A DNA stretch of 64,000 bases from an uncultured beta proteobacterium (lineage in GTDB: Bacteria > Pseudomonadota > Gammaproteobacteria > Burkholderiales > SG8-41): positions 1-64,000 of the forward strand of contig CADECM010000014.1 of NCBI GenBank assembly GCA_902825845.1, read 5' to 3'. The first letter of the stretch is position 1, and each line of letters opens with the position of its first letter. Below are positions 19,935 through 20,567 of this stretch, in pieces. A model generated the notes under the pieces. It saw nothing but the letters and a program-made list of their open reading frames with translations. It was not told where the DNA came from and made no database searches. The position numbers were made by a program, and so were the translations under genes.

Positions 19935-20108
19935 GTATTTGCCCTCCTTTGCACAAAGGTTTTTCGAAGTCCCGCCAGTGTAGCCTGTCCGGCCCGCAAT
20001 GCCCCCACTCGCGAGTCGGATAGAACAAAATGCGCGCTGCGTCTTGCCGCAGGCGGGCGTCAAAGGTAGTCTCTCGGTTCCTGCCAACCCATCACAAGGA
20101 GTTTTGCC

Positions 20109-20567
20109 ATGTCCGTGCAAGTAGGCGCAGCCGCGCCGGATTTCACGCTGGCGGCACACACCGGAGCCTCGGTGTCGCTGTCCGGCTTTAAAGGTCGCAA
20201 GACCGTGGTCGCGTTTATGCCCTTCGCGTTTACCGGTGGCTGAACGAATCAAGTCAAAGGGTTCCGTGAGAACTACGAAGCATTCAAAGCATTGAACGTT
20301 GAAATCGTCCAGATCAGCGCAGACACCGTCCCCAGCCTCAAGGCCTGGGCCGAACAACTGGGTGGCATACCCTTTCCGCTGGTGTCGGACTACTGGCCGC
20401 ATGCCGCAGTGGGCAAAGCCTACGGCATTTTCAACGAAGAAAAAGGTTTCGACAAACGTGCCGCCTACGTGCTCGATGAAAAAGGCGTGGTGCGTTACGC
20501 CAAAGTGTACGAGCCGGGCACCATTCCGCTGAGCGATGAACTGCTGGCGGAGTTGAAGAAGATTTAG
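20109..20567 (+). CDS. Selenocysteine-containing peroxiredoxin (in-frame UGA at the peroxidatic position)
   Basis: A 152-residue AhpC/TSA-type peroxiredoxin if the TGA at 20241-20243 is read as selenocysteine (residue 45). Reading starts at ATG 20109, 7 bases after AAGGAG. The N-terminus is VGAAAPDFTLAAHTG, followed by KTVVAFMPFAFTGG, then UGA, then TNQVKGFRENYEAF. This places UGA exactly where the family has its peroxidatic cysteine (FTxxC). The reading frame continues without any further stop through ISADTVPSLKAWAEQLGG and VVRYAKVYEPGTIP to TAG at 20565. No cysteine occurs in the protein, so without selenocysteine it would have no catalytic residue. A SECIS-like hairpin follows the UGA. It should reduce hydrogen peroxide or organic hydroperoxides. 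The alternative is a recent Cys-to-stop pseudogene. Confidence 0.85.
20241..20274 (+). promoter_or_regulatory. UGA codon plus candidate bacterial SECIS hairpin (peroxiredoxin)
   Basis: After the UGA there are exactly 21 bases, the last five forming the 5' arm GGTTC (20260-20264). Then come a 5-base loop CGTGA (20265-20269) and the 3' arm GAACT (20270-20274), giving five pairs including one G-U. The loop carries GU at positions 2-3, as expected for SelB recognition. The stem is short, but spacing and loop match the second candidate at 36797-36832. Confidence 0.7.

Follow-up and report, generated by a model that had tools for sequence, protein, structure and literature searches.

An AhpE-type peroxiredoxin gene of environmental betaproteobacteria predicted to encode selenocysteine at the peroxidatic position

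An uncultured betaproteobacterium carries a gene whose product is almost certainly an AhpE-type, cytosolic one-Sec peroxiredoxin, with selenocysteine (Sec) specified by a UGA that would be decoded by SelB and a hairpin downstream. The gene lies in the window (the whole 64,000-nucleotide stretch of DNA that was analysed), which comes from a genome of 6.04 Mb in 207 contigs (100% complete, 2.68% contamination). The original prediction that Sec takes the place of the peroxidatic Cys is supported by the comparisons below, from which we infer both Sec incorporation and peroxidase activity.

The reading frame (20109-20567) starts, as predicted, at an ATG preceded by AAGGAG, and purine-rich sites of this kind precede nearly all orthologues of the Sec peroxiredoxin (Sec-Prx). 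Translated with TGA as U, the frame runs on to a TAG stop at 20565-20567, its sole TGA is codon 45, and its 152 residues include no Cys at all, as had also been foreseen. The Pfam domain PF00578 (AhpC/TSA) matches residues 5-130 with 123.3 bits against a cutoff of 26 (E 7e-36). The TGA codon aligns to Cys45 of M. tuberculosis AhpE, and so falls at the catalytic Cys where the original prediction had placed it; R117 is the invariant catalytic Arg. The warning that gene callers would yield a short C-terminal fragment was justified: ORF calling with table 11 gives just 91 aa from TTG 20292.

Most close relatives keep, at fixed spacing and a few tens of bases 5' of the start codon, a block that looks like the promoter of a non-standard sigma factor (Table 1). 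Because this pattern has a single occurrence in the genome and its reversed control pattern has three, it is no proof of a regulon. No conserved partner gene was found near Sec-Prx among the fetched relatives, and a downstream amidohydrolase gene was common to just four of them. Coding bias on either side of in-frame TGAs, a crude method, gave no other convincing selenoprotein candidate in the window.

Table 1. Features of the Sec-Prx gene in the window.
Feature	Position	Strand	Basis
Sec peroxiredoxin gene, AhpE-like, 152 aa, apparently monocistronic (predicted)	20109..20567	+	translation with TGA=U, PF00578, AhpE similarity
In-frame UGA, predicted Sec45, peroxidatic Cys position of P38xxxT42xxU45	20241..20243	+	translation, TGA in 53/53 non-redundant full-length orthologues
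Ribosome binding site AAGGAG	20096..20101	+	upstream of ATG 20109
Promoter-like block TTGCY-N16-GGTARYCT	20044..20072	+	kept in most close relatives, function inferred
Block without synonymous variation GGG TTC CGT GMG AAC TAC, predicted SECIS core	20259..20276	+	53-gene codon comparison
Predicted SECIS hairpin GGUUC-CGUGA-GAACU, 5 bp, 5-nt loop with G and U	20260..20274	+	fold and conservation

To follow the active-site column across relatives, we assembled 53 non-redundant full-length genes (60-89% identity, window gene included) from 60 genomes and database contigs. The column is TGA in all 53 and Cys in none. Genome searches returned more TGA-bearing orthologues outside this set, and in the 60 genomes every subfamily match that spans the column has TGA. 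The orthologues are otherwise free of frame damage, and their terminal stops are TAA, TAG or TGA. Residues P38, T42, U45 and R117 are invariant in the 53, and the few Cys of the other orthologues sit at scattered positions, none of them conserved. Pairwise omega against nine close relatives ranges over 0.04-0.18 in the part upstream of the TGA and over 0.09-0.17 in the part downstream: purifying selection acts on either side.

In the tree, the Sec-Prx orthologues form a single clade (support 99/99) apart from the Cys homologues. The alignment of Cys and Sec at this column, which had been proposed as a check, shows Sec throughout the orthologues, and most of the distant homologues have Cys there. 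Additional TGA lineages comprise a Chloroflexi sequence (L094), exported paralogues and a 43% relative from another family of the order. A search for a Cys-form orthologue covered 398 genomes from the phylum and 300 from the order and found none: the column-spanning matches that reached E 1e-24 were all TGA. The putative Sec peroxiredoxin is fixed throughout an entire group of environmental betaproteobacteria. Several MAG contigs labelled Bordetella parapertussis or Klebsiella pneumoniae group with the betaproteobacterial Sec-Prx carriers (L049-L052, L055, L058, L074, L076, L087); the organism names on these records look wrong.

Downstream of the TGA, the 53 sequences share a block of 18 nt that begins 15 nt past it (codons +6 to +11). 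Only five of the 67 eligible codon columns lack synonymous variation, and all five lie inside this six-codon block, a clustering as tight as which was obtained in 0 of 200,000 random draws. Neighbouring conserved residues mostly use two to four codons. GGG makes up 18% of the Gly codons in these genes overall and 100% at its position in the block. The block can form a hairpin (GGUUC-CGUGM-GAACY) beginning 16 nt past the UGA, with its loop at 21 nt from the end of that codon. Its five pairs are kept in 53/53 sequences, one of them alternating between G-U and G-C, and the Glu/Ala variation in the block (GAG/GCG) touches the last loop base alone. Covariation is absent because the sequence scarcely varies.

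We take this constrained hairpin 3' of the UGA as a predicted SECIS element. It lies just past the UGA with a G in its small apical loop, as a bacterial SECIS should, and is weak by folding energy alone. Since the 63 nt that surround and follow the UGA fold no more stably than their shuffles (z 0.44), we rejected a stable extended SECIS fold and claim just the short apical hairpin. The hairpin being short and the z-score 0.44, the case for a SECIS rests on synonymous constraint. The exact core occurs once in the genome and is therefore gene-specific, not a genome-wide motif. A gene for a TlpA-like selenoprotein in the same genome has a hairpin (UGCCUUC-CGUGCA-GAAGGCA) at a similar distance from its UGA, and the two hairpins have the apex UUC-CGUG-N(1-2)-GAA in common, which fits recognition by one SelB.

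The original prediction had pointed to the sel genes of the rest of the genome as a check, and all of them are present. One locus holds selA (585 bits), selB (455 bits), a gene for a thioredoxin-reductase-like flavoprotein and the tRNA-Sec (selC) with anticodon UCA; selD (421 bits) lies outside it. Because the N-terminal region of selD (L109:1501-2430) has an in-frame TGA (GGC-TGA-GGC-TGC, peptide GGGUGCK), SelD is itself probably a selenoprotein in this genome. SelD is among the most widespread bacterial selenoproteins (PMC1794560).

We scored the co-occurrence of Sec-Prx and selB in 60 genomes (G000-G059); in G013 and G029, where selB is partial or split at a contig end, it was counted as present. 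Both genes occur in 33 genomes, selB without Sec-Prx in 8 and neither in 19; no genome has Sec-Prx without selB. The direction of this association is the one predicted for a selenoprotein, with a Fisher p of 1e-9, uncorrected for the relatedness of the genomes, which inflates the significance. Two family members that lack Sec-Prx (G022 and G034) also lack selB.

Other explanations of the TGA have to be weighed against these data. The chance that a Cys codon was misread in sequencing or assembly is practically nil. TGC and TGT are one base from TGA and the window comes from a draft assembly in 207 contigs, but dozens of genomes that were assembled separately have TGA at the same codon; because all 53 orthologues share the column, the TGA is neither such an error nor chance. 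It is extremely unlikely that the TGA is a true stop in a decaying pseudogene with a nonsense mutation. The standard code does read it as a stop, and the 91-aa downstream ORF alone is called, but none of the 53 TGA-bearing orthologues has other frame damage, and the genome has Sec machinery. Decay of the gene in relatives, named along with the original prediction as a finding that would speak against it, is absent, and omega stays low (0.04-0.18) both before and after the TGA.

Readthrough of UGA happens in bacteria, and the codon might be read as Trp or another residue instead of Sec. We regard this as very unlikely, because TGA also serves as the terminal stop of several orthologues, the homologous residue is Cys, selABCD are present with selB co-occurring with Sec-Prx, and a constrained hairpin stands at the position expected of a bacterial SECIS. 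Only slightly less improbable is a selenium-dependent switch, in which UGA would mostly terminate translation, the full-length protein would be made only when selenium is plentiful, and regulation would be the main point. Decoding of UGA by SelB generally competes with termination; however, the 44 codons before the UGA do not make a complete domain and selection downstream is equally strong. Moreover, a switch is compatible with a Sec peroxiredoxin and thus not a true alternative to it.

Sec peroxiredoxins with a TxxU motif are an established bacterial selenoprotein family, as the original prediction had stated (PMC13188914, PMC9312934, PMC1794560, PMC1088965). PMC13188914 and PMC9312934 cite the Sec-Prx of Eubacterium acidaminophilum as an example, and a 2016 survey counted 91 Sec-Prx proteins in 78 organisms (PMC5029168). 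Like the known members, the window gene has PF00578, a PxxxTxxU motif whose peroxidatic position is a UGA, a downstream SECIS (here predicted) and Sec machinery in its genome, and by every sequence criterion it belongs to this broad family. It differs from them in that its protein has no Cys and its host is a betaproteobacterium. The protein scores 86.1 bits with the NCBIfam PrxU equivalog NF040737, far below the curated cutoff of 270, and does not belong to that equivalog.

The nearest solved relative, by both sequence (E 8e-33) and predicted structure, is M. tuberculosis AhpE (PDB 1xxu, 4x0x, 5id2). The predicted structure (pLDDT 96.6) matches AhpE best, with Z 27.0 and rmsd 1.2 over 151 residues, and other peroxiredoxins follow close behind (Z 23-26). 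Both proteins have Thr42, a single catalytic chalcogen as nucleophile at residue 45 and no resolving Cys; the catalytic Arg is residue 116 in AhpE and 117 here. They are 36-37% identical, and the nucleophile of AhpE is Cys. In AhpE, Thr42 and Arg116 assist Cys45 in its reaction with peroxide (PMC4965862), and the reductant is mycothiol/mycoredoxin (PMC4360819), an actinobacterial chemistry not expected in the host of the window gene.

The protein would be made and would work as follows. SelB carrying Sec-tRNA-Sec would bind the hairpin 16 nt past the UGA, so that selenocysteine is inserted at residue 45. By analogy with AhpE, Sec45, activated by Thr42 and Arg117, would attack the O-O bond of the peroxide and become a selenenic acid. 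Because there is no resolving Cys, an outside thiol would be required to reduce it: glutathione/glutaredoxin, a thioredoxin-like protein or the flavoprotein of the sel locus. As mycothiol/mycoredoxin is not expected in betaproteobacteria, its place is probably taken by glutathione/glutaredoxin or a thioredoxin-like donor.

The flavoprotein gene (L017:12767-13669, plus strand) lies between selB and the tRNA-Sec. Its 301-aa product has FAD/NAD(P) domains and a CADC motif, and matches Pyr_redox_2 with 120 bits and TIGR01292 with 214 bits, the latter below the cutoff of 343. The gene occupies the same place in every sel locus of the family that we examined and in G040. Five genomes that have selB without Sec-Prx (G037, G042, G044, G049, G058) lack it in their sel loci. 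This distribution is suggestive of a link between the reductase gene and Sec-Prx. The link is weakened by G047, which has Sec-Prx and lacks the flavoprotein gene in its sel locus, and by three family members (G017, G026, G035) with the reductase gene in which Sec-Prx was not detected. In the L119 locus, reading of the insert between the reductase gene and the tRNA-Sec revealed no evident further selenoproteins. The flavoprotein is a candidate for the electron source of Sec-Prx. That it is a reductase dedicated to Sec-Prx, and perhaps to other selenoproteins too, in this betaproteobacterial lineage seems unlikely on balance. If it were, the Sec-decoding locus would both make and recharge selenoproteins, and environmental betaproteobacteria would possess a selenium-based peroxide defence system.

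The same genome encodes a Sec-Prx paralogue (L100:4845-5396, minus strand; FTKTUTQ) that likewise has an AhpC/TSA domain with TxxU. It is 34% identical to the window protein, has a hydrophobic N-terminus resembling a signal peptide and sits on a separate branch of the tree. It adjoins a TlpA/ResA-like gene (L100:5433-5966, minus strand; WATWUDIC, a UxxC motif). The two genes, located outside the window at about 126844-127965 of G000:C4, encode putative exported selenoproteins: each is interrupted by a TGA in frame, and each product begins with a hydrophobic stretch. The products are possibly a periplasmic selenium redox pair. In other family members (L102:2177-3289, L104:2812-3899), the gene for an exported TGA peroxiredoxin is followed directly by a second, peroxiredoxin-like gene that has Cys in the active-site column.

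A 2006 survey of sequenced genomes reported one selenoprotein family in betaproteobacteria (PMC1794560). What the sequences here add to the known peroxiredoxins is a distinct clade, AhpE-like, betaproteobacterial, predicted to be cytosolic and one-Sec, and below the NCBIfam PrxU cutoff; we found no published description of it in our partial coverage of the literature. In the lineage to which that survey gave one selenoprotein family, there is a peroxiredoxin clade that appears to be Sec-only, with no Cys form in the sampled genomes. Ordinary gene callers will render its genes as short fragments. Together, the gene, its synonymously frozen putative SECIS and the reductase gene of the sel locus would make up a compact system in which to ask why selenium is kept in a peroxidase.
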